Shown here: positions 1,457-14,286 of the stretch, piece after piece
Layout of the letters: each line of letters opens with the position of its first letter
Numbering within the stretch: position 1 is the first letter of the stretch
Source: an uncultured Lachnospiraceae bacterium
GTDB taxonomy: Bacteria > Bacillota > Clostridia > Lachnospirales > Lachnospiraceae
Reading direction: 5' to 3'
NCBI GenBank assembly: GCA_951801955.1
Contig: CATOOV010000002.1
Location: 62,001-126,000, forward strand
Length of the DNA stretch: 64,000 bases
Translations under genes and position numbers: made by a program
The notes under the pieces: generated by a model
Database searches by the model: none
What the model saw: only the letters and a program-made list of their open reading frames with translations
Told to the model about the DNA's origin: nothing

Positions 1457-2779
1457 TTGGGGGTATGGAAAGAAATGTTAGGCGGTTCTGTGTATATTGC
1501 ATTGATTCGGTTTGTCATAAGCATTGCAGGCGTAATGATATTATTCTTTTTGATGAGTGAACTGAAGTTTGGAAGAAAAAAGTCAATTATTTTGTATAGC
1601 TGTTTTAATATTATATTGCTTATATTTGCCTGCACTTGGTATATGATTGACTGGGAAAGTTGTGTGAAGATGGTGGCTTTTGTGATCTATCTGTCCTTTG
1701 CTGTTTTCTCCATATTTATGAGCAGGGATAAGGTTTTCTTGTCCGTGTATAAGCTTGCGCTGGTATTTTATCTGCTTGCAGTATTCTTAATTACAGGAAT
1801 TGAGGTTGCAATTCTTTTTTTTGACAGGAATGTCTGGGCGGATATTGTCACTAGGATCGTGCTGATTATATTAATGTCTGTGTTTATCGAAAAAAAGATA
1901 AAAAAAGTAATTTTTGGGTTCGCAAATTATGTGGAGACTGAACTTGACCGGTTTAGCATTGTGGTAATGGTTATCAGCATTTTGTTTGGCATAGGGTTTA
2001 TTTTAAATCCAAACAGTCATGACCAGACGCCCTATCGCCTGTATCAAGTTATTATGAACTTTTTTTTGACAGGCGCCCTTCAGATTTTAGTATTCCGCCT
2101 GTATCTGCATATTGGAAAGGAGAAGGAATACCAGAAGGAATATCAGTTGATGGAAATGAATCACCGGTTGTTAGAGCGGAATATGGAGCTTTTAGAAGAG
2201 TCTGCAGAGTCAGGAAGAAGGATCCGCCATGACGCCAGGCACCATAATGTGGTGATCGCTGAGTATGTCCGAAGAGGGCAAAATGAAGAGTTGCTGCAGT
2301 ATTTGAAAGAATATGAGAAGGGGATGGCTGTGGATGTGCCAGAAGCAATATGTGCCAATACAGCCGTCAACAACCTTCTTTCAGCATATACCAGGAATGC
2401 CAAGAAAGAACAGATAAAAGTTACGCTGGATGTGGAATTGGGGAAGGTTCTGCCGATTCCAAATATTGATTTGGTTACAATTTTGGCTAATGCTTATGAA
2501 AATGCCATTTATGGATGTATGGAGGTAAAAAAACAGTCAAAAGGGATGGAGTGTTTTATCCATTTAATGCTTAAGAGAAAAAAGAACAAGTTGGTGATTT
2601 GCTGCAGCAATACCTGCAGAATCGAGACTGAGATTAAAAATGGGTTGCCAAAACCAGAATTTACAGGCGGGGTTGGTGTGTTAAGCATTGTTAAAACGGC
2701 AGAAAAATTTGATGGGGAATACGATTTTAAAAATGATAACGGCGTATTTGTCTTTCGGTTGATTATGAATATCCCCTAG
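1457..2779 (+). CDS. agr-like sensor histidine kinase (multi-TM, GHKL ATPase)
   Basis: Multiple hydrophobic segments, then RRIRHDARHHNVVIAEY phosphoacceptor-type motif and GHKL ATPase region (NAYENAI, GGVGVLSI). Start could be ATG at 1475. Confidence 0.85.
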   Translation: MGVWKEMLGGSVYIALIRFVISIAGVMILFFLMSELKFGRKKSIILYSCFNIILLIFACTWYMIDWESCVKMVAFVIYLSFAVFSIFMSRDKVFLSVYKLALVFYLLAVFLITGIEVAILFFDRNVWADIVTRIVLIILMSVFIEKKIKKVIFGFANYVETELDRFSIVVMVISILFGIGFILNPNSHDQTPYRLYQVIMNFFLTGALQILVFRLYLHIGKEKEYQKEYQLMEMNHRLLERNMELLEESAESGRRIRHDARHHNVVIAEYVRRGQNEELLQYLKEYEKGMAVDVPEAICANTAVNNLLSAYTRNAKKEQIKVTLDVELGKVLPIPNIDLVTILANAYENAIYGCMEVKKQSKGMECFIHLMLKRKKNKLVICCSNTCRIETEIKNGLPKPEFTGGVGVLSIVKTAEKFDGEYDFKNDNGVFVFRLIMNIP

Positions 2780-2887
2780 ATTTTTCTCATACGCCGATGG
2801 GATTGGGCTTCCATATTTGATCTGTGCCCTGCTTTTACTTTGCAGGGGGAAAAACAATAAAGCCATAAAGAGAGAAAGAGGTGCAGT

Positions 2888-3616
2888 ATGTATCTGATCG
2901 CACTCTGTGATGATGAGACGGCAGAATTGAATAAAACAGAAGAAATGCTCAATGGCTATAAAAAAAGGCATCCTCAGATAGAGCTTTTCATAGAATGCTT
3001 TGAAGATGCAGATGAATTACTCTATATGGTCAGGGAAGAAAATTATATGCCAGATTTGATGTTGATGGATATTTATATGCCAGAAAAGCTGGGGATTGAA
3101 GTTGCAAAAGAACTGCGTGACATGGGAAATAACAGTATCATTGTGTTTCTTACCACATCCAGGGAACATGCGCTTCAGGCTTTTGGTGTGGACGCAGCAC
3201 AGTATTTGGTAAAACCTGTGTCAGAAGAACGGTTATTTCCAGTCCTGGATAAATTTTTTGCCAGCGCGGCAGAGGAACGCAAAAAATATCTTGTTCTGCG
3301 TGTCAATGGAAGGATCCAGCGGGTGGCAGTGAGTGATATTATATATTGTGAGGCACAGGGAAAAAACCAATGCCTGTATCTTGAAGACGGCACACAATGC
3401 CTGCTGCGCATGACTATGACAGAGATTTATGAGATGCTCTCTGCGTACCAGGAGTTTGTAAGGGTTGGGGTTGCCTTTATCTTAAATATGGACCATATTG
3501 ACAACCTGAACGCCAAAGATATCTGTTTAAGCACCGGAAAGAAAATTTATCTGCCGAGGGGGGCATACAAAACGTTAAAGGAACAGTATTTTCAATATTA
3601 CTGTGGGGAGGAGTGA
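2888..3616 (+). CDS. LytTR-family response regulator (AgrA-like)
   Basis: Receiver domain (CDDE, LMDIYMP, K in YLVKPVS) plus LytTR domain. Confidence 0.9.
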   Translation: MYLIALCDDETAELNKTEEMLNGYKKRHPQIELFIECFEDADELLYMVREENYMPDLMLMDIYMPEKLGIEVAKELRDMGNNSIIVFLTTSREHALQAFGVDAAQYLVKPVSEERLFPVLDKFFASAAEERKKYLVLRVNGRIQRVAVSDIIYCEAQGKNQCLYLEDGTQCLLRMTMTEIYEMLSAYQEFVRVGVAFILNMDHIDNLNAKDICLSTGKKIYLPRGAYKTLKEQYFQYYCGEE

Positions 3617-3765
3617 GAAGTGTAAGTGGATATTATGTTATGTGGGATTTTTATTATTATAAAAGGAGGGAAAAATTAGTTGAAGGAAATATTATGAAGT
3701 GTTAAGATTTTTATAAACCATACCATGTATTTAAGTGAATAGAAAATTAAATTTGGAGGAGAGAG

Positions 3766-5424
3766 ATGGATATAAATGATTATGAAACAGGAAAGTTAAA
3801 CAATGATGTGCAACAATATGATGATCTTGACGATTTTAAAAGGGATATACTGAATCATCTACGTACTGAAAAAGAAAGCTGGAAGGAAAAAATTAATCAT
3901 ATTATTAATTCAAATGGATATACAAAAGTAGCATTTGCGGAACTTTGTGAAGTGAGTCGAATTTCCGTAGGAAAATGGTGTAAAGGTTCTATTCCCAAAA
4001 GTAGGGAAATGTTTATAAAAATTGGATTTGCAGCACACTATAACTTAGATCAAATGAATAAGTTTTTAATGAGATATGGAAAATATACAGCCCTGTATGC
4101 AAAGTCTTTGGAAGATAGCGTATATATCTTTGTGTTAAATTCTAATCATATTCCCCATAATTATAATGTATGCAAAAAGATTTTGGAAAAAATACATTTT
4201 AAGATGCAGGGACAGGAAATAATAGGGGGCTCCTGTTATGATACTTCTGATCTTTTGGAAGAAATATTAAATTTATCAGAAGAATCGGAACTAGTGGAAT
4301 TTATTCAAAATAATAGCGAGGCTTATAAAGAACCTTATAGAAAGTTTTATGCATATGTAGAAGACTTTCTAATAGCAAATTGTATAGGTTTTAAAAGTGG
4401 TGAAGTATTTAATAACTGTTTGGCGCCAAAAGGTAACTGGTCTTCTTCACTCCGTAAATGCGTATATGCAATACGAAAAAAGCAATGGTTTCCAATGCGG
4501 AGAAAAGTAATTTCTTTAGGTTTGCATTTGAATATGAATTTGAAACAGATTAATGATATGCTTCAATTAGCACAAATGGAAACTTTATGTGCAAAAAATC
4601 CGGTGGAGCTTGCAATTATATATGCCTTGGTGGATGCGGACTTGAATAATGTAATTTCTTGTGATGGAACTAATGAATTATGTATCTATATAAAAGAAAT
4701 TCTTTCGGAATTAGAAATAGATGATACAGAAGATTTTCTTTCGGAATTAGAAATAGATGATACAGAAGATTTAGCAGTTGGTGGACCAATTTTGGTATTG
4801 CTTGAAATGGAAACAGTCAAGAGTTTTTCCTTAAATTCCCAGACACAATGGACAATTGGAAGAAGTTGTCCAGAGAACTTCCCAGACATTCCATTACAAT
4901 CACCCATTGCAGGAAGAAATCAAGGTCAATTTCAGCGTATCGAAGGGCAGTGGTTTTATGTGGATGGCAAAAGCCGTAATGGTACATTTTATAATGGACA
5001 AAAAATAGTGACTGGATTAAATGGTAAGCTTCAATCAGTAGCATTGAGTAATGGAGATATACTCCGTGTGGACAATAGTAATCTTACTACACCAGATCCC
5101 AGAGGTGTCTGGATGTTATTTACTGAAGATTATATCAACGGGGAGTGGGTAATGTATTCACTTGAAAAAAACACTACAATTATTGGACGAGATCCCGAAA
5201 GGTGTCAAATTGTACAGCCACTTCCTTATATTTCATCCCAACATGTGAAAATTACATATTTGAATGGAAATTACTATATTTCAGACTGTAATAGTAAATC
5301 AGGAACTTGGCTGAATGGGGAAAGGGTGGAAGGCTCTAAAATACTCCAGGAAAAAGACAAGATTTCATTGTGTGATTGCTTTTTTATTTTTACAGGGAAC
5401 AGTCTTCTTTATCATAAACAATAG
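3766..5424 (+). CDS. HTH-like protein with two C-terminal FHA domains
   Basis: SD ggaggagag before ATG; two HTH-like modules in the N-terminal half; FHA motifs TIGRS...SRNGTFYNG and IIGRD...SSQH...SKSGTWLNG. Confidence 0.85.
   Translation: MDINDYETGKLNNDVQQYDDLDDFKRDILNHLRTEKESWKEKINHIINSNGYTKVAFAELCEVSRISVGKWCKGSIPKSREMFIKIGFAAHYNLDQMNKFLMRYGKYTALYAKSLEDSVYIFVLNSNHIPHNYNVCKKILEKIHFKMQGQEIIGGSCYDTSDLLEEILNLSEESELVEFIQNNSEAYKEPYRKFYAYVEDFLIANCIGFKSGEVFNNCLAPKGNWSSSLRKCVYAIRKKQWFPMRRKVISLGLHLNMNLKQINDMLQLAQMETLCAKNPVELAIIYALVDADLNNVISCDGTNELCIYIKEILSELEIDDTEDFLSELEIDDTEDLAVGGPILVLLEMETVKSFSLNSQTQWTIGRSCPENFPDIPLQSPIAGRNQGQFQRIEGQWFYVDGKSRNGTFYNGQKIVTGLNGKLQSVALSNGDILRVDNSNLTTPDPRGVWMLFTEDYINGEWVMYSLEKNTTIIGRDPERCQIVQPLPYISSQHVKITYLNGNYYISDCNSKSGTWLNGERVEGSKILQEKDKISLCDCFFIFTGNSLLYHKQ
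4701..4772 (+). repeat. 36-bp tandem duplication (LSELEIDDTEDF x2)
   Basis: tctttcggaattagaaatagatgatacagaagattt occurs at 4701 and 4737. Confidence 0.9.
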
Positions 5425-5860
5425 AAAGGTATTACATTATCCAAATGAAAAAAGGGGTATTTTAAAAATTAGATATACAAGGTAGCTAAAAGTAATTCAG
5501 CTACCTGGATTACAGGGGAGTAAGAAACATTTTAATAAAAATTATAAGTGTGTGAAGTTGCAGGAAGCCTATAAATTAGACTTCCTGTTTTGCGTACATG
5601 GAGAATGTGATAACTATAGGTGCAAATAGAAAAAATAATATTTATTATAATATATCTAGAAATTGAGAACACTAGATTAATTTACATGATAAAAAAATAA
5701 ACAGAAACCTATTATGCGTTGTCAAGATAATTTAAGTTATATTCGTCGATATTAGTTATTACTCATTAGAGTGACTACCAATAATTAATTATTTTATTCT
5801 TTCTATAGTGTAAAGTCAATTTTTTAATATTTTAAATAATGGGAAATAGGAGGGCAAAAG

Positions 5861-6106
5861 ATGAAGAACAAAGTTACAGTTATGAAAGGCGAAAGATCAA
5901 GACTGCATTTTTATCTGCAGTCTGAAAAAGGGAAGTATTATTTGTTTTCACAGTCATATACCAATGGGGTCTATGAATTTTTCAAGTCAGGGAGATCCGA
6001 AAGGGAGGTGCGCAATTATCGTAAATGGAATCGTAATCCCAAACTTGACAAAACCATTGAGAAGATCCCCATGTATATAAAATACATAGTCTGGGAGGTG
6101 GTTTAA
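5861..6106 (+). CDS. small conserved-looking protein, 81 aa
   Basis: SD taggagggcaaaag-ATG; coherent basic/aromatic composition; same strand as the locus. Confidence 0.6.
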   Translation: MKNKVTVMKGERSRLHFYLQSEKGKYYLFSQSYTNGVYEFFKSGRSEREVRNYRKWNRNPKLDKTIEKIPMYIKYIVWEVV

Positions 6107-6222
6107 CAAAAGGGAATTTTTATTTTTTTACCGTTTCGAATGATGCCATATTATAGTAGCCAAAAATTTTGGGAAGGAGTCTAAATCGTTTCTTTTCCAA
6201 GCAAAAGAAAGGGTGGTATAGG

Positions 6223-9200
6223 ATGAAAAATAAAAAACAGCATCCAAATGGATATAGAAAAATTTCAATATGGAAAAACTTTTGGATTTTATTGGTGGTT
6301 ATGCTTTTATTTACAACGTTTTTAGGTGGAAGGATAAATGTAAAGGCAGCTGCTAAGACGTTCACATCCTCGGAGGTTGCAGATTATTTTAACAAGCAGG
6401 TAGGAAAAAGTTACCCTTCTGGAATGTGTTTAAAATTTGTGGCAGATTCCTTTGGAAATTTGGGAGCTGATAGAAGCAGTACTTGTTGTGCATACAAATA
6501 TGGGAGTAGCCATATTACTTCTAAAAATATAGATAATATTCCAGTTGGGGCGGATGTTTTTTTCGGGGCATGCGGAGGAGGACCTTGTAAAACGTGCAAA
6601 TCCAGTTATTATGGACATATAGGGGTTTATGTAGGAGATGGATATTTTGTACATGCGACAGGAGGGAAAGTCCAAAAAACATCCTTAAAAGGTACCAATT
6701 GGAAAAATAAATACCGTGGATGGGGATATCATGGAAACGTAAATATTTCCCAATCTACATCTGGTAATAATAAACCAGAATCGGGTCAACAGCCTATTCT
6801 CTCTTGTCTTGATTTTCCAGAAGATGGAAGGGCTTATAGCGAAACAGACAAGATAGTTATTCAAGGGTGGTTTATAACGCCAGATGGGGTTGCGTGTGTA
6901 AATGCAGGCAAAGCCGAGGGTTCTGATTTAGTGCAGTGCAGTATGTATTCCAGACCGGATGTGTCTAACTTATACCCTGGTTATCCTACAGGCAGCGAGG
7001 GGTTTCGGGTGGAAGCCACGCCGGCGCAATTGCAACTAACCCCTGGCAGCAATACAATCGTTATTAGGGGATATTCGAAAAATGGACAAGTTGTTGAGAT
7101 AGGGAAACGGACAATCAATTATGAACCAAATTTTTTCCATATAGATACGCCTGCCAAGGATCTCAACAGCATTTCAACAACATCGGATATATATGGCTGG
7201 GTCATTTCAAAAAAAGGGATCTCCAAACTTGTTATTGTGCTCAATGATGTGGAATACGAAATAACAAACCGGTTCCAGCGTCCCGACGTCGCCCAATACC
7301 ATCCGGGATATGATGTTTCCAAGGCAGGATTTTCTTACCAGATAGATCCCACCAAGTTCCGTAACGGCATGAACAGCCTGAAAGTCAGAGCTTACACCTC
7401 ATCCAAAGATTATTTTGAAATATACAATGGGATGTTTGAAGGGATCAAGATGTGGGAGGGGTATTTTGACTCCGATTATTATTACGCCCGATATAAGGAC
7501 AGTGACGTGGACGTAAGGAATATTGGTCAAAACGAGGAGAAACTGAAATACCATTATTACACGGCTGGGATTGAAAAAGGGTACAGCCCCTGTATTTCCT
7601 TTGATGCAAAATACTATAAAGAAAATAATGGGGATCTTCGTGACAAGAGTTATAAATTTGTATATGAACATTTTGTAAGGTTTGTCTTGGGGAATGGTGA
7701 AATACGCCCGTTAAGCCCGTGGCTGCATTTGGGATTTTACCGCGACCATTATAGGGACGAGCTTGGTTCGATGGATTCTAAAACGCTGGTGACCCACCAT
7801 AAGGTGTATGGTTCGCGGGAAGGGCGGCTGGGAGCGCCCACACAGGAAGCAGAGGCGTTTTGTAAGTTGTATAATCCCATTCGATATGCAGGCTGTAAAG
7901 GGAATGAGGATGTGAGGAATGCATTTGGTGATGGTTCTACAAATGAGAGCAGGGATTTGCTTTGGTTCCATTTTTGGTATTATGTGCTGGGAGGAAGCGA
8001 TGAACATCAGGCATCAGACGAGTTTTGTTTCAATTATGTGAAGAAAACCTATAACTTAAAAACCAATATGGATGCGTTCTGGTGGTATATGGATACAGGG
8101 TATTCCCAGAAGTTAGATACTGTACAAAAAACAGAGGTATCGCATGTCCATACGCTGGAAAAGACTGAGGCACAGCCTGCGTCCTGCGTCAAATCTGGAA
8201 ATAGGGAGTATTGGACCTGTACAAATACAGATTGTAATAAGGTCTATGCCGATGCCGATGCGGTCATTGATGCAACTGTAGAAATGATGTCAATACCTAA
8301 AACGGAACATACCTGGGATGAAGGGATTGTAACAAAGGAACCATTGGGGATGAAAACAGGCATTAAGACTTATACCTGTTCAGAATGCGGCAAGATTCGG
8401 ACAGAGGAAATTGCTGCAACAGGGAAACATATGTTGGTCAAGGTAGAGGAACAGCCAGCAGGATGTATCGAAAATGGAACTAGGGAGCACTGGCGCTGTA
8501 CAGACTGTGGCATATTGTTTGCGGATAAAGATGCAAGTACAGAAACCACAGTAGAAGAATTGGAAATCTCCTGTACAGGGCATGTCTGGGACGAAGGCGA
8601 GGTGTCGATGGAACCTGCTGCCGATCAGGCAGGTATGAAAGTATATACCTGTACCGTGTGCGGGTCTTCCAGGTTGGAAGAAGTGTCTCTTCCAGGGGAA
8701 ACACATAAGCTGTCTAAGGTGGAAAAAAAGGCGGCTAATTGTACAAATCCAGGACACGAAGCGTACTGGATTTGTACGGATTGCGGCAAGGTATTTGAAG
8801 ATGCGGAGGGCAAAAAAGAAACAAGCACCGGAGCCATGGAGATCCCAAAGACAGCACATGCCTGGGATGGAGGCAAAGTGATTAAGGAACCATCTATCAG
8901 CACCCTATATACTTGTATACAATGTGGAACAACAAAAAAACAAGAAATACCTCCTTCTGGAGGAGGACATATACTGTCCAAGGTGGCTGCCAAAAAAGAA
9001 AGCTGTTTGGAAAACGGGAACAAGGAGCACTGGAGCTGCACGGACTGCGGTATGTTGTTTGCGGATAAAGATGCAAGGACAGAAACCACGGCGGAAGCTG
9101 TTACAATTCCGCAAAAGCCACACAATTGGGATAAGGGCGAGGTACTAAAAGAGCCGACATCAACAGAGAAGGGGATAAAAATTCTTCGGTGTACAATCTG

Positions 9201-10125
9201 TGGTTGGACTGAGGTGGAAAAAATATCATCAACGGGAGGGGAAGGACATAACCATAAATTAGTAAAAGTTGAGGAAAAAGACGCAGAATGCCTGACACCT
9301 GGAAACAAGGCATATTGGTTATGTGAAGATTGTGGTAAAATGTTCAAAGATAAGGATGCAGGAAGGGAAACCACAGCAGAAGCTGTAACCGTTCGTGAGA
9401 CTGGGCATGCCTGGGATAAAGGCAAAGTAACCAAGGAACCCACCGCCAAAAAGAAGGGAGAGAAAACGTTTCACTGCGTGGTGTGCGGAGGCATAAAAAC
9501 AGAAACCATACCAGAATTGGATGAAGAGGATGATATGCCAGAAGTTGGTGACAGGCTTATTGATGAGGATACCAATAACATTTATTTGGTAACCCATATG
9601 GGTCCCCAAAAAAAGGAAGTATCTTATTTCAAGCCAGGCAAAAAGTCGGCAAGTACAGTCAAAATTCCTTCTGTTGTTACGATTGGCGGATGCACTTACA
9701 AGGTGGTATCCATAGCTCCCAAAGCATTTGCAAATAACAAAAAATTGAAAAAGGCAGTGATCCAGGGGAATGTGGAAACAATTGGCAAACAGGCATTTTC
9801 TGGTTGTACAAAACTCAAGTCTGTGACGCTTGGGACAAAGATCCATAGCATTGGGGACAAAGCATTTTTCCAATGTACAGCATTAGAAAAATTTACAATT
9901 CCATCTAAGGTGTCAACAATTGGCAAACAGGCATTTTATAAATGTAAGAAGATGAAGTCAGTTACAATCAAGACGGCAAAATTGACAAGTAAAAAAATTG
10001 GGTACCAGGCTTTTAAAGGGCTTCCTTCCAAGGTAGTGGTAAAAGTGCCCAAGGGAAAATTGAACACCTACAAAAAAATATTGATAGCAAAAGGCCTTAG
10101 TAAAAAAGCAAAAATTAAAAGGTAA
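6223..10125 (+). CDS. large secreted NlpC/P60-like (cysteine peptidase/amidase-type) surface protein with Cys-rich repeats and BspA-like leucine-rich repeats
   Basis: Signal-peptide-like N-terminus; CLKFVADSFG and YYGHIGVYVGDGYFVHA Cys/His context; five ~90-aa repeats with CxxC pairs; C-terminal LRR_5-type AFxxCxxLxxVxI repeats. Confidence 0.8.
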   Translation: MKNKKQHPNGYRKISIWKNFWILLVVMLLFTTFLGGRINVKAAAKTFTSSEVADYFNKQVGKSYPSGMCLKFVADSFGNLGADRSSTCCAYKYGSSHITSKNIDNIPVGADVFFGACGGGPCKTCKSSYYGHIGVYVGDGYFVHATGGKVQKTSLKGTNWKNKYRGWGYHGNVNISQSTSGNNKPESGQQPILSCLDFPEDGRAYSETDKIVIQGWFITPDGVACVNAGKAEGSDLVQCSMYSRPDVSNLYPGYPTGSEGFRVEATPAQLQLTPGSNTIVIRGYSKNGQVVEIGKRTINYEPNFFHIDTPAKDLNSISTTSDIYGWVISKKGISKLVIVLNDVEYEITNRFQRPDVAQYHPGYDVSKAGFSYQIDPTKFRNGMNSLKVRAYTSSKDYFEIYNGMFEGIKMWEGYFDSDYYYARYKDSDVDVRNIGQNEEKLKYHYYTAGIEKGYSPCISFDAKYYKENNGDLRDKSYKFVYEHFVRFVLGNGEIRPLSPWLHLGFYRDHYRDELGSMDSKTLVTHHKVYGSREGRLGAPTQEAEAFCKLYNPIRYAGCKGNEDVRNAFGDGSTNESRDLLWFHFWYYVLGGSDEHQASDEFCFNYVKKTYNLKTNMDAFWWYMDTGYSQKLDTVQKTEVSHVHTLEKTEAQPASCVKSGNREYWTCTNTDCNKVYADADAVIDATVEMMSIPKTEHTWDEGIVTKEPLGMKTGIKTYTCSECGKIRTEEIAATGKHMLVKVEEQPAGCIENGTREHWRCTDCGILFADKDASTETTVEELEISCTGHVWDEGEVSMEPAADQAGMKVYTCTVCGSSRLEEVSLPGETHKLSKVEKKAANCTNPGHEAYWICTDCGKVFEDAEGKKETSTGAMEIPKTAHAWDGGKVIKEPSISTLYTCIQCGTTKKQEIPPSGGGHILSKVAAKKESCLENGNKEHWSCTDCGMLFADKDARTETTAEAVTIPQKPHNWDKGEVLKEPTSTEKGIKILRCTICGWTEVEKISSTGGEGHNHKLVKVEEKDAECLTPGNKAYWLCEDCGKMFKDKDAGRETTAEAVTVRETGHAWDKGKVTKEPTAKKKGEKTFHCVVCGGIKTETIPELDEEDDMPEVGDRLIDEDTNNIYLVTHMGPQKKEVSYFKPGKKSASTVKIPSVVTIGGCTYKVVSIAPKAFANNKKLKKAVIQGNVETIGKQAFSGCTKLKSVTLGTKIHSIGDKAFFQCTALEKFTIPSKVSTIGKQAFYKCKKMKSVTIKTAKLTSKKIGYQAFKGLPSKVVVKVPKGKLNTYKKILIAKGLSKKAKIKR
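8146..9525 (+). repeat. five ~90-aa Cys-rich repeats within the secreted protein
   Basis: H.L.KVE...C...G..E.W.C.DCG..F.D.DA..ETT...(I)...H.WD.G.V.KEP.....YTC..CG recurs five times. Confidence 0.85.
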
Positions 10126-10134
10126 AATTGTAGA

Positions 10135-10165
10135 ATGGAAACCGCTGGTTTTATGCGGTTTCCAT
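10135..10165. terminator. hairpin downstream of the secreted protein gene
   Basis: ATGGAAACCGC...GCGGTTTCCAT perfect stem; no clear U-tract. Confidence 0.4.
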
Positions 10166-10355
10166 AATGGAACATGATGCAAGTTATCTTGACTATGAAA
10201 TAAAACTATGTGAAACCGATTCAATTGTTTTATAGCAAATATTTTATTTACTTGCTTTGTTTCCACCAGTTATAAAAGCACTTTTCACAGCAGATTTCGC
10301 AGGCATATGTATTTGCATTTATGATTGCTTTCAAGAGAAAAAAGTGGATGAAAAT

Positions 10356-10568
10356 ATGGTGATTTTAATGGTGGTGTTCCTTGTTCTATTGGCAATATTG
10401 TTTTTTATCATTGCTGGGACAGATGAGAAATATTCAGGAATCTTGTCAATGTTTTTTGGAAGCTTGCTGGAAGGAGCGCTTAATCTTTTGATGTTGTGTG
10501 CATGTATGACGGTGATACTTTTCCCACTGGGGGCTTTGATATGGAATCGGAATGACAGGTACAGATGA
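10356..10568 (+). CDS. small membrane protein
   Basis: ORF track 10257..10568; internal ATG at 10356 gives a two-TM protein MVILMVVFLVLLAILFFII...; start uncertain. Confidence 0.45.
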   Translation: MVILMVVFLVLLAILFFIIAGTDEKYSGILSMFFGSLLEGALNLLMLCACMTVILFPLGALIWNRNDRYR

Positions 10569-10893
10569 ATGACAGGATTGTTTGAAAATATCAAAACTTA
10601 CATCCAATATTGGAAAATATCAGAACTGTCTCTGGAGATACTTCTTACGAGTGGTTTTGTGGTAACATGATTTTTAGAGATTTTGATTGAGTAAAAATGC
10701 AATTTTTCATTTCCAAATGTATAGATCTATTATAAAATTAAATTAAACCACTACTGATATCTTGCTGGGGAGTGCGGGGTGTTTCATATTCTTTGCTCCA
10801 TGTGCCTATCACATGCTGGAAATTATATCAGTTTTTGGAATTAAAATTGATTTTGAGAAAAAGTTTAAAAAAATTTTACCAGGAGGAAGAAAT

Positions 10894-12456
10894 ATGTCAA
10901 TTGGTACAAGGACAAAACAAGGTGGAATGGTGTTTGGTGATTGGAAGATCTATCAACATGTGGGCAGTGGGTCAGGAGGAAGAACTGCAGTATTTCAGAT
11001 AAAGCGTTCCAATTTTGATTGGGAAGAGACAAGTGCGCTAAAGGTAGTAAACATTATTGAGGAAGAAGGACAATTATCTCAACTATCAAAAACATATAAA
11101 AACACTTATGAAGAAGAATGTAAGCGACTGTGTCGGGAAGCGCAGATGGAAGTCCGGTTGATGTATCAAATGCAGGGGAGTATGAACGTTGTCAATTACC
11201 TTGATTATAAATTTTCAGACTGGGAGGAGGAGAATTTTTTTGGATGTGACCTGTTGATTCGAATGGAGTTTTTGGGTTGCCTGAAGCATCTTGTAAAACA
11301 GAAAGACCAATACTCCGAAGGAGAAGTGATACATATTGGTAAAGATATCTGCAAGGCGCTAGTCAGTTGCCATAAGAATAATATTATCCACCGAGACATC
11401 AAACCAGGAAATATTTTTCGAAACAGCCAAGGGTGTTATAAACTAGGAGATTTTGGGATTGCCAGGATATTAGACTTTACAGGAAATGCCAGTACAATAA
11501 AGGGAACCTATGCATACGCAGCCCCTGAACAATTTAGAGGAAATGGTAGGGAAAAGTATGATAATCGTGTAGATATTTACAGTTTGGGACTTACCTTGTA
11601 TGAACTGTTAAATGGCAATCGATTGCCATTTGCACAGTCAAGTTATGTCAGACAGGAGGATATAGAACTTCGTATAGGTGGTAAGCAGATACCTGCCCCT
11701 TCAAATGTGGGAAACGAATTAGCGAAAGTAATTTTGAAAGCTTGTGCTTTTGAACGAGAGGAACGCTTCCAATCCGCACAGGAGTTTCTGAGTGCATTGG
11801 AGAAAATAGAAAATCAGACAAACTATAGACAAATAATCAGGGAAAAGGAAATAGAGCCAGATCCATATGATACAGTTCCAGCAACAGCAGGAAATAAAGT
11901 AGAGCAAAATCCATATGATACAGTTCCAGCAACGGTAGGAAATAAAGAACAGAACACATCGGTTAAGCAGGGAAATGCAGAAGCCCAGTGTAATTTAGGA
12001 AATTGTTATTACAATGGAACAGGAGTAGAACAGGATTTTAAGGAAGCAGTGAAATGGTACCAAAAGTCAGCCGAACAGGGAAATGCAGAAGCACAAAATT
12101 GTTTGGGAGATTGTTACTATCATGGAAAAGGAGTAGAACAAGATTATAAGGAAGCGGTAAAATGGTACCGAAAGTCAGCTGAACAGAAAAATGCAAAAGC
12201 CCAGTGTAATTTAGGAGATTGCTATTGTTATGGAGAGGGGATAGAACAGGATCTTAAGGAGGCAGTCAAGTGGTGGATTAAGTCAGCCGAACAGAAAAAT
12301 GCAGAAGCCCAGTATAAATTGGGAAATTGTTATTATTATGGAAAAGGGGTAGAACAGAATTTTGGGAAGGCAGTAAAATGGTACCAAAAGTCAGCTGAAC
12401 AGGGATATATGAAAGCTCAAAATAGGGTTGGATTTTGGAGAAAGATTGTTAAATAG
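10894..12456 (+). CDS. Ser/Thr protein kinase with C-terminal Sel1 repeats
   Basis: SD aggaggaagaaat-ATG at 10894 (in frame with the track ORF); SALKVV Lys, IIHRDIKPGN, KLGDFGIA, APE motifs; ~4 Sel1 repeats (GNAEAQ.NLG.CYY.G.GVEQD.KEAVKWY.KSAEQ). Confidence 0.93.
   Translation: MSIGTRTKQGGMVFGDWKIYQHVGSGSGGRTAVFQIKRSNFDWEETSALKVVNIIEEEGQLSQLSKTYKNTYEEECKRLCREAQMEVRLMYQMQGSMNVVNYLDYKFSDWEEENFFGCDLLIRMEFLGCLKHLVKQKDQYSEGEVIHIGKDICKALVSCHKNNIIHRDIKPGNIFRNSQGCYKLGDFGIARILDFTGNASTIKGTYAYAAPEQFRGNGREKYDNRVDIYSLGLTLYELLNGNRLPFAQSSYVRQEDIELRIGGKQIPAPSNVGNELAKVILKACAFEREERFQSAQEFLSALEKIENQTNYRQIIREKEIEPDPYDTVPATAGNKVEQNPYDTVPATVGNKEQNTSVKQGNAEAQCNLGNCYYNGTGVEQDFKEAVKWYQKSAEQGNAEAQNCLGDCYYHGKGVEQDYKEAVKWYRKSAEQKNAKAQCNLGDCYCYGEGIEQDLKEAVKWWIKSAEQKNAEAQYKLGNCYYYGKGVEQNFGKAVKWYQKSAEQGYMKAQNRVGFWRKIVK
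11862..11952 (+). repeat. 48-bp tandem duplication encoding (D/N)PYDTVPAT linker motif
   Basis: tccatatgatacagttccagcaac repeated at 11862 and 11910. Confidence 0.85.
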
Positions 12457-12556
12457 AAGAAAGGAGCTATCATGGATTGGGTTTATCTAAAAACATTTAT
12501 TTGTAAAAAGAAAGTATTTGCAGATAAACAAATGTAGAAAACATAAAGGAGACAAA

Positions 12557-13438
12557 ATGGAAAAAAGCAAGTATTATCATGAAAATGATGTAGAAAGTAA
12601 ACATATGCAAGAGACGCCAGCCTATATTTTTCACGGATATGTGGCAAGTAATGTAGGATTAAAGAGGATGAATAATGAAGATAATTTTTTACTGGACGAA
12701 ATATGGAATAGAGAATCAGCATTGGATAAATCAGAAGACATGACAATTGCAAATAAACAGAAAGCATGGTGTAATGTTGCAGTATTTGATGGAATGGGAG
12801 GGGGAGAGAATGGAGAACTTGCTTCTATGATTGCGGCAGAAGAGTTCCAAAAAGTTTTTAATAAAATTGATGTTAATACTGTTGAGACAGATATTGAAAC
12901 TATGTCTCGTAGAGGTTTTTTGAACGCAAACAGAAGAATTATTGAAGAACAGCAGTACCATGCCATGTATGGTACAACAGGAACAATAATTTGTACAAAT
13001 GGTGTAAAATTTAAGGTATTTCATTTAGGAGATAGTCGTGCATATTTATTTCGGAATGGAGAGCTGTACCAGCTTACCAAAGACCAGACATTAGCAGCAA
13101 TGAAGATTTCTCTTGGGTTTTATGAGGAAAATGATCCGCTGGTAGAGAAAGAAAAACATCAGTTGACAGAATATATTGGTTGTGATCAAACTTTGGAAAA
13201 TTTAAGACCACTTGAAAGCCAGTGGATGGATTTGCTGTCTGGGGATAAGTTGTTGATTTGTAGTGATGGTTTGTATGATATGTGTTCGAATGCGCAAATT
13301 ATTGAAATTATGAAAAACGAGGAACAGCCAGAAAAAATAGCTCAGAAATTATTGCAGCGTGCACTGGAGAACGGCGGATTTGATAATATTACCTGTTTAG
13401 TGTTAGAAAGGGGTATTTGTATGGATAATTGCAATTAA
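12557..13438 (+). CDS. PP2C-family (PPM) protein phosphatase
   Basis: RMNNEDNF, VFDGMGGGENGE, LGDSRAYL, LICSDGLYD, GGFDNITCL motifs; SD aaaggagac-aaa-ATG. Confidence 0.93.
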   Translation: MEKSKYYHENDVESKHMQETPAYIFHGYVASNVGLKRMNNEDNFLLDEIWNRESALDKSEDMTIANKQKAWCNVAVFDGMGGGENGELASMIAAEEFQKVFNKIDVNTVETDIETMSRRGFLNANRRIIEEQQYHAMYGTTGTIICTNGVKFKVFHLGDSRAYLFRNGELYQLTKDQTLAAMKISLGFYEENDPLVEKEKHQLTEYIGCDQTLENLRPLESQWMDLLSGDKLLICSDGLYDMCSNAQIIEIMKNEEQPEKIAQKLLQRALENGGFDNITCLVLERGICMDNCN

Positions 13439-13722: not shown

Positions 13723-14286
13723 TTACATGTCCAGCAATTTTGCAATATTGGAAAAATCAACATACAAATCATCATAGATGCCAGCTTTTACAGAATCCGC
13801 AAAAGTATAATCTCCGGTATCCTCCGACTCGAAGTTGTAAATAAGAATCCGGTTTTTTTCTAAATCAACAATCCAGTATTCCCGAACTCCGGCAGTACGG
13901 TATTTAAATAGTTTTGTAAAATAATCCATTCTCCTGCTGCCTGGGGATACAATTTCGATGATCCAGTCAGGTGCACCATAACAGCCGCTGTCTGTGAGCT
14001 TGTTACTATCACAGATCACACAGATATCTGGTTCAACATAATTTTTATCATCTTCATTCAAAAATACTGCAAATGGAGCAAAAAATGGTTCACAGGAACC
14101 GTCTTTTGACCGGATATAGGAATCTATGGAGGAGAAGAGTTCCCTGGCGATTGTCTGGTGTTTGCGGTTGGGTGGAGCCATCATATAAAGTTGTCCATCA
14201 ATCAGTTCTGCACGTTCTCCTTCTGGCAGGGAATAGATATCATCCATCGTGCCAAGTTTTTTGCGGGCTAATTCAGCCATGGGCAA
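13723..14286 (-). CDS. Uma2-family (DUF820) putative endonuclease
   Basis: ERAELIDGQLYMMAPP..H, VEPDICVICD, PDWIIEIVSPGSRRMD motifs. Confidence 0.85.
   Translation of the reverse strand: MPMAELARKKLGTMDDIYSLPEGERAELIDGQLYMMAPPNRKHQTIARELFSSIDSYIRSKDGSCEPFFAPFAVFLNEDDKNYVEPDICVICDSNKLTDSGCYGAPDWIIEIVSPGSRRMDYFTKLFKYRTAGVREYWIVDLEKNRILIYNFESEDTGDYTFADSVKAGIYDDLYVDFSNIAKLLDM

Follow-up and report, generated by a model that had tools for sequence, protein, structure and literature searches.

A run of co-directional genes in an uncultured Lachnospiraceae bacterium probably encodes a kinase-FHA-HTH phospho-switch, in which a Ser/Thr kinase (STK) would set a phosphorylation state, FHA domains fused to a tandem helix-turn-helix (HTH) would read it and a PP2C phosphatase would reset it. 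The locus lies at 3766–13438 of the window (the whole stretch of 64,000 nucleotides that was analysed), with all of its genes on the + strand according to the ORF list and the domain matches. The original prediction held that the state set by kinase and phosphatase is read by the HTH-FHA protein, and this stands as the best explanation because HTH, FHA and STK genes occur together in other genomes, joined by PP2C in a subset of them.

The proposed phospho-reader and transcription regulator is a protein of 552 aa (3766..5424, + strand) whose ATG start codon is found just after GGAGGAGAG. Pfam recognises two FHA domains in it (E 8e-29) and HTH_3 only below threshold. The first HTH repeat, of the lambda-repressor/Xre-like type, lies approximately at 3877..4035 (+) and gives local Foldseek matches to the HTHs of DdrO, P22 C2 and C.AhdI (target-normalised TM 0.7–0.8, E about 1). 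AlphaFold models the N-terminal part of the protein as all-helical with a lambda-repressor-like HTH at its N-terminus (pLDDT 79), and the global fold of this model has no significant match in the PDB (best E 0.26); the full-length model, of low confidence at FHA2, was left out of the analysis. The second HTH-like repeat (approximately 4438..4575, +; about aa 225–270) is more divergent than the first, with P243, R245 and G252 invariant in an alignment with 14 homologues. Between the HTH and FHA1, a tandem 36-bp duplication (4688..4759, +; direct repeat D6) encodes LSELEIDDTEDF and LSELEIDDTEDL, which contain candidate threonine sites. FHA1 (4849..5067, +; PF00498) keeps R and N of the FHA signature and has lost S and H, reading GRNQG where most homologues have SRKHG, and FHA2 (5176..5370, +; PF00498) keeps GR and SxxH, i.e., R, S and H, with S in place of N in the NG loop (SKSGT). 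The description of an HTH-like protein with two FHA domains is therefore right as to the domain matches and the modelled first HTH, but both FHA domains have altered signature residues; with FHA1 lacking Ser/His and FHA2 the loop Asn, two canonical phosphothreonine readers are not to be assumed, and to judge from the alignment it is doubtful that both are functional. The FHA region has no match among PDB sequences at E 1e-5.

Upstream of 18 HTH genes, no shared operator rose above shuffled sequences. The sequence ACCATACCA precedes the HTH gene by about 50 bp both in the window (3717–3725) and in a second locus, L055 (7661–7668); limited to these two, it is not general and is probably a coincidence. 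A rather improbable alternative to a DNA-binding regulator is that the tandem HTH acts as a protein-protein adaptor, the FHA-HTH protein scaffolding or sequestering the kinase or another regulator. It would account for the near-invariance of recognition-helix residues W71, S64 and R80 among genera that have no upstream operator in common, as well as for the degenerate second HTH repeat, but repeat 1 matches DNA-binding lambda-repressor-like HTHs by model and by profile, and EmbR is a precedent for an FHA domain joined to a DNA-binding domain (PMC4601284).

The gene set itself was described correctly: the genes are co-directional, the kinase is complete in its motifs (G-loop, K, HRD, DFG and APE) and has neither PASTA domains nor a hydrophobic segment, and the PP2C is complete (ORFs, Pfam). 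The cytosolic kinase (10894..12456, +; Pfam Pkinase 5e-38, Sel1 6e-50) carries four Sel1 repeats, which suggest a protein-protein input, and differs from the PrkC/Stk1 class of PASTA kinases also in scoring 144 bits with NF033483 against a cut-off of 450. A 48-bp duplication in its linker (11844..11939, +; direct repeat D5) yields two PYDTVPAT motifs, candidate autophosphorylation or FHA docking sites; among related loci (cited here by L numbers), the L149 kinase linker has DPYET once and the L148 linker none. The PP2C gene follows (12557..13438, +; PF00481 2e-18), and the best NCBIfam match of its product is Stp1 (NF033484, 1e-46). The same genome encodes a separate PASTA kinase and PrpC on contig C88, and the locus PP2C is therefore a second, local phosphatase.

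The association of HTH, FHA and STK is real and conserved. The N-terminal half of the reader defines a tandem-HTH family of proteins of about 340–370 aa, which at E 1e-6 has members in 26 of 396 family genomes and at E below 1e-60 comprises 15 loci. At 14 of these 15 loci there is a same-strand STK no more than about 6 kb away (expected 0.42, P about 1e-21) and an FHA gene is near nine (expected 0.21, P about 5e-14), the expected numbers being derived from the STK and FHA counts of each genome. In the gene maps of the first loci, FHA and then STK come right after HTH in seven; others have HTH and STK without FHA, and one has FHA without STK. Held-out loci found later by profile showed HTH-FHA-STK in three of three, and HTH-FHA-STK(-STK) is the dominant order among 39 loci with organism names found with an alignment of FHA-linked HTHs (a few of which were already in the earlier set). 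The gene-neighbourhood check proposed for this locus, run for HTH, FHA and STK, thus gave co-occurrence that greatly exceeds chance, both in many genera and among the held-out loci, and the trio is found as adjoining genes in dozens of related species. Gaps of 100–440 bp between the genes of the locus, and the presence of the exact set in one genome, might be read as a chance neighbourhood of unrelated genes; we give this almost no credence, since HTH/FHA/STK and FHA/STK-Sel1/PP2C recur independently, and for the HTH/FHA/STK core the held-out loci refute it. A scan of the locus for terminators and promoters, not decisive for transcription units, found no strong terminator.

PP2C, listed in the prediction as a member of the module, holds that place in a subset of the sets, L149 (FHA-FHA-ABC, STK-Sel1, PP2C), L180 (HTH-FHA-PP2C-STK-secreted) and L135 (PP2C-HTH-vWA-STK), but is not significantly enriched across the tandem-HTH loci overall. 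L180, where HTH, FHA, PP2C and STK are followed by a gene for a large secreted protein in one run, is nearest to the full set first proposed. L135 (genome G1056), of a more distant family, has PP2C, tandem HTH, a kinase-like protein, vWA and STK one after another plus a divergent FHA gene, and may be a bridge between the HTH/FHA/STK sets and TerY-P-like triads. Several other arrangements were observed around these genes. A single-copy HTH relative of about 145–155 aa lies beside an STK, often divergently, in L004, L007, L008, L009, L011, L012, L020, L022, L136 and L137, the last two being held-out cases, and most of the kinases concerned form their own clade (99/94). GrpE-like (about 163 aa) and Hsp70/DnaK-like (about 551–553 aa) proteins are encoded downstream of the kinase pair in L155, L168, L169, L189 and L190 and on the upstream side in L059, which suggests that a chaperone is linked to the HTH-FHA-STK-STK module in several species. 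In L016 and L019, putative macro-domain-like proteins (a domain assigned by eye) have a similar HTH fused at the C-terminus.

In the relatives, the FHA-adjacent kinase carries a linker motif, DxxTETYRE, C-terminal to its catalytic domain. Five first kinases have T-x-T-[YF]-[RH]-[DE] in common about 20 residues past the catalytic domain (shuffling 0.0002–0.0006 each), and the motif, defined on these five loci, then held in 21 of 25 new first kinases. At the named loci its relaxed form TxT[YF] is present in 26 of 32 FHA-adjacent first kinases against none of 26 second kinases, and the strict form in 19 of the 32; these counts are not all independent because some rows are close relatives. Strict matches in 157,591 aa numbered 21, of which 20 were in FHA-adjacent first kinases and the remaining one in the first kinase of L162. 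When linkers are aligned on the motif, T-E-T-Y-R-E reaches 3.0–4.3 bits and the D three positions before it 3.4, with flanks mostly at 0.7–1.8, the linker being otherwise unconserved. From this pattern DxxTETYRE is a strong candidate for an FHA-docking site. The window kinase has no TxT[YF][RH][DE] motif, which is common and not defining, and has the duplicated PYDT instead.

Tree placement and identities separate the window locus into parts of two origins. Its HTH falls inside the clade of FHA-linked tandem HTHs (100/99), whereas its FHA region lies outside the clade of HTH-neighbour FHA proteins (100/100) and has its closest matches among FHA-FHA-ABC proteins (identities of 45% and 42%). For its STK, the closest relatives are STK-Sel1 kinases from the FHA-ABC loci L148 and L149 (50% and 47% identity; support 97/79), within a clade that holds most tandem-HTH-linked kinases (99/96) and is apart from PASTA kinases, those of L053, L056, L098 and L099 being in other clades. 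The PP2C is 45% identical to the one adjoining STK-Sel1 in L149. Both L148 and L149 have an FHA-FHA-ABC ATPase, an ABC-2 permease and STK-Sel1, and L149 additionally has PP2C. On these sequence affinities the window locus is a chimera, combining the HTH of the HTH/FHA/STK family with the double-FHA/STK-Sel1/PP2C cassette of FHA-FHA-ABC loci. The output borne by the FHA domains would therefore have been exchanged, being an exporter in L148/L149 and a tandem HTH in the window, and the swap between ABC exporter and HTH may have gone in either direction. The absence of TETYRE, the duplication of PYDT and the loss of FHA1 Ser/His, which the HTH-neighbour FHA proteins for the most part retain, are consistent with a changed contact between kinase and FHA. 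HTH and FHA in one protein were found in the window only, i.e., in a single draft genome, and this fusion links the HTH to the FHA part.

In the switch that we propose, STK-Sel1, for which the Sel1 repeats probably provide a scaffold or a trigger, would phosphorylate threonines. The most likely sites are in its linker, at the duplicated PYDTVPAT, and the DDTED repeat of the reader is a possible further one. Phosphothreonine would be bound by the FHA module, mainly by FHA2, and binding would alter the fused tandem HTH, most likely changing how it binds DNA and how local genes are transcribed, until PP2C takes the phosphate off.

The reader gene and the kinase gene are separated by 5.5 kb, with the gene of a secreted protein of 1300 aa in between (6223..10125, +). 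This protein has a hydrophobic segment at its N-terminus, an NlpC/P60-like N-terminal part, Cys-rich repeats and a C-terminal LRR_5 region; it had been presented as a secreted NlpC/P60-like repeat protein, which is correct for its secretion and for a weak NLPC_P60 match (2e-5) but overlooked the strong LRR_5/BspA match (2e-26). That the switch specifically controls this protein, and hence the cell surface, is a tentative reading, favoured by the position of the gene within the locus and by an LRR_5 enrichment near tandem-HTH loci (P about 0.01). Near related modules, large secreted proteins of LRR_5 or Ig-like type are found repeatedly, and large secreted proteins lie beside those of L006, L052, L057, L061, L148, L160, L172, L180, L186 and L188. 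However, LRR_5 genes are so abundant, with 58 matches in this genome, that the enrichment is no stronger, an operator was not found, and no NlpC/P60 orthologue linked to related modules was seen elsewhere; given the abundance of LRR_5 proteins and their modest enrichment, the secreted neighbour is a candidate target only. As a fixed member of the module, the NlpC/P60 protein was rejected, only its common LRR_5 tail matching the secreted proteins of the neighbours. Fixed membership found no support either for two small ORFs. The 81-aa ORF (5861..6106, +), without a Pfam or NCBIfam match, is probably incidental; a stretch of an unannotated faecal phage record (MT835511.1) shares 45% identity with it across 60 aa. 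The small membrane protein of the prediction does correspond to a hydrophobic ORF of about 70 aa (10356..10568, +), but it is known only from the ORF list, has no homology support and is doubtful as a gene.

The locus is flanked by a GHKL/LytTR two-component pair upstream and by the spoIIIA operon on the other side. The upstream pair (1475–3616), a GHKL histidine kinase and a LytTR response regulator, is agr-like, with no recognised peptide gene, and a putative Uma2-type-like ORF (13723–14280, - strand) separates the locus from spoIIIA. Within the genus, the site 5' of spoIIIAA is highly variable, with LRR_5 surface proteins there in some genomes. In 27 same-genus genomes, the 1.5 kb preceding spoIIIAA contained none of HTH, FHA, STK and PP2C, the HTH half was found in 0 of 28 same-genus genomes, and G+C falls to 0.32 near the reader gene, from about 0.40. 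A scan of genome contigs for close relatives with the full reader protein as pattern gave no match, nor did a plasmid search. The locus is accessory and occupies a variable site. Patchy distribution, the absence of the HTH half from those 28 genomes and matches of the kinase domain to the PADLOC PD-T4-6 and MAD6 models would also fit a kinase-based system for phage defence or some other conflict. We regard such a system as very unlikely: the matches are to a generic kinase domain and the other components have no PADLOC match, the module has no toxin-like or nuclease part, and the PP2C/FHA/ABC relatives point to physiology.

The phospho-switch resembles several known systems in part. TerY-P triads consist of vWA, PP2C and STK, and PrkC/PrpC pairs a PASTA kinase with a PP2C. 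The window shares STK and PP2C with both, but Pfam found no vWA among its locus proteins and no PASTA in its kinase, and the prediction that it is neither a TerY triad nor a PASTA kinase with PrpC was borne out. In Mycobacterium tuberculosis, EmbR is phosphorylated by PknH in an FHA-dependent manner that MstP reverses, and its FHA domain is required for it to interact with the kinase (PMC4601284). As in the window, a DNA-binding domain and a C-terminal FHA domain share one protein with STK and PP2C partners (PMC4601284). EmbR is however of the SARP type (OmpR-type DNA-binding domain, BTA and FHA), whereas the window has a tandem Xre-like HTH, a double FHA and a cytosolic STK-Sel1; Pfam gave no match to an OmpR-type DNA-binding domain or a BTA domain in the reader, whose modelled HTH is lambda-repressor-like. 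Also in M. tuberculosis, the interaction of Rv1747 and PknF, encoded in a two-gene operon, is FHA-dependent (PMC3908365), and two FHA domains with a neighbouring STK are a likeness to the window (PMC3908365). That type, to which L148 also belongs, has an FHA-fused ABC ATPase, whereas the window has neither ABC_tran nor permease, its FHA-borne output being the tandem HTH. Closest are the Lachnospiraceae HTH/FHA/STK(/STK) sets, e.g., those of [Clostridium] aminophilum KH1P1 (L184), Lachnospiraceae bacterium MC2017 (L190) and XBB2008 (L152), with orthologous tandem HTH, FHA and kinases of the same broad clade. The window belongs with this family by its HTH in the 100/99 clade, its fused FHA and its same-strand STK in the 99/96 clade. 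In the relatives, HTH and FHA are separate genes and the kinases are mostly membrane-bound, often paired and usually with TETYRE, unlike the fused HTH-FHA and the Sel1 kinase of the window, which is without TETYRE.

A search of the open-access literature (subscription papers being outside it) found no description of the HTH/FHA/STK set. Each component belongs to a known kind; what is new is their combination, together with the candidate docking motif and the exchange of output. There is about an even chance that these loci represent an undescribed Lachnospiraceae phospho-transcription system: the DxxTETYRE of a membrane kinase would be read by a dedicated FHA protein acting together with a tandem-HTH regulator, the window showing a portable FHA/STK/PP2C core whose output was exchanged between ABC exporter and HTH, with docking motif and FHA signature changed to match. 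The short motif would predict the docking threonine, and it, the natural domain exchange between exporter and HTH and the gene set can all be tested using peptides and domains in purified form. A defined route to transcription exists for few bacterial Ser/Thr kinases, and the examples in the reviews consulted come mainly from pathogens, e.g., mycobacteria; the finding is of a recurring compact set of kinase, reader and regulator in gut and rumen anaerobes.
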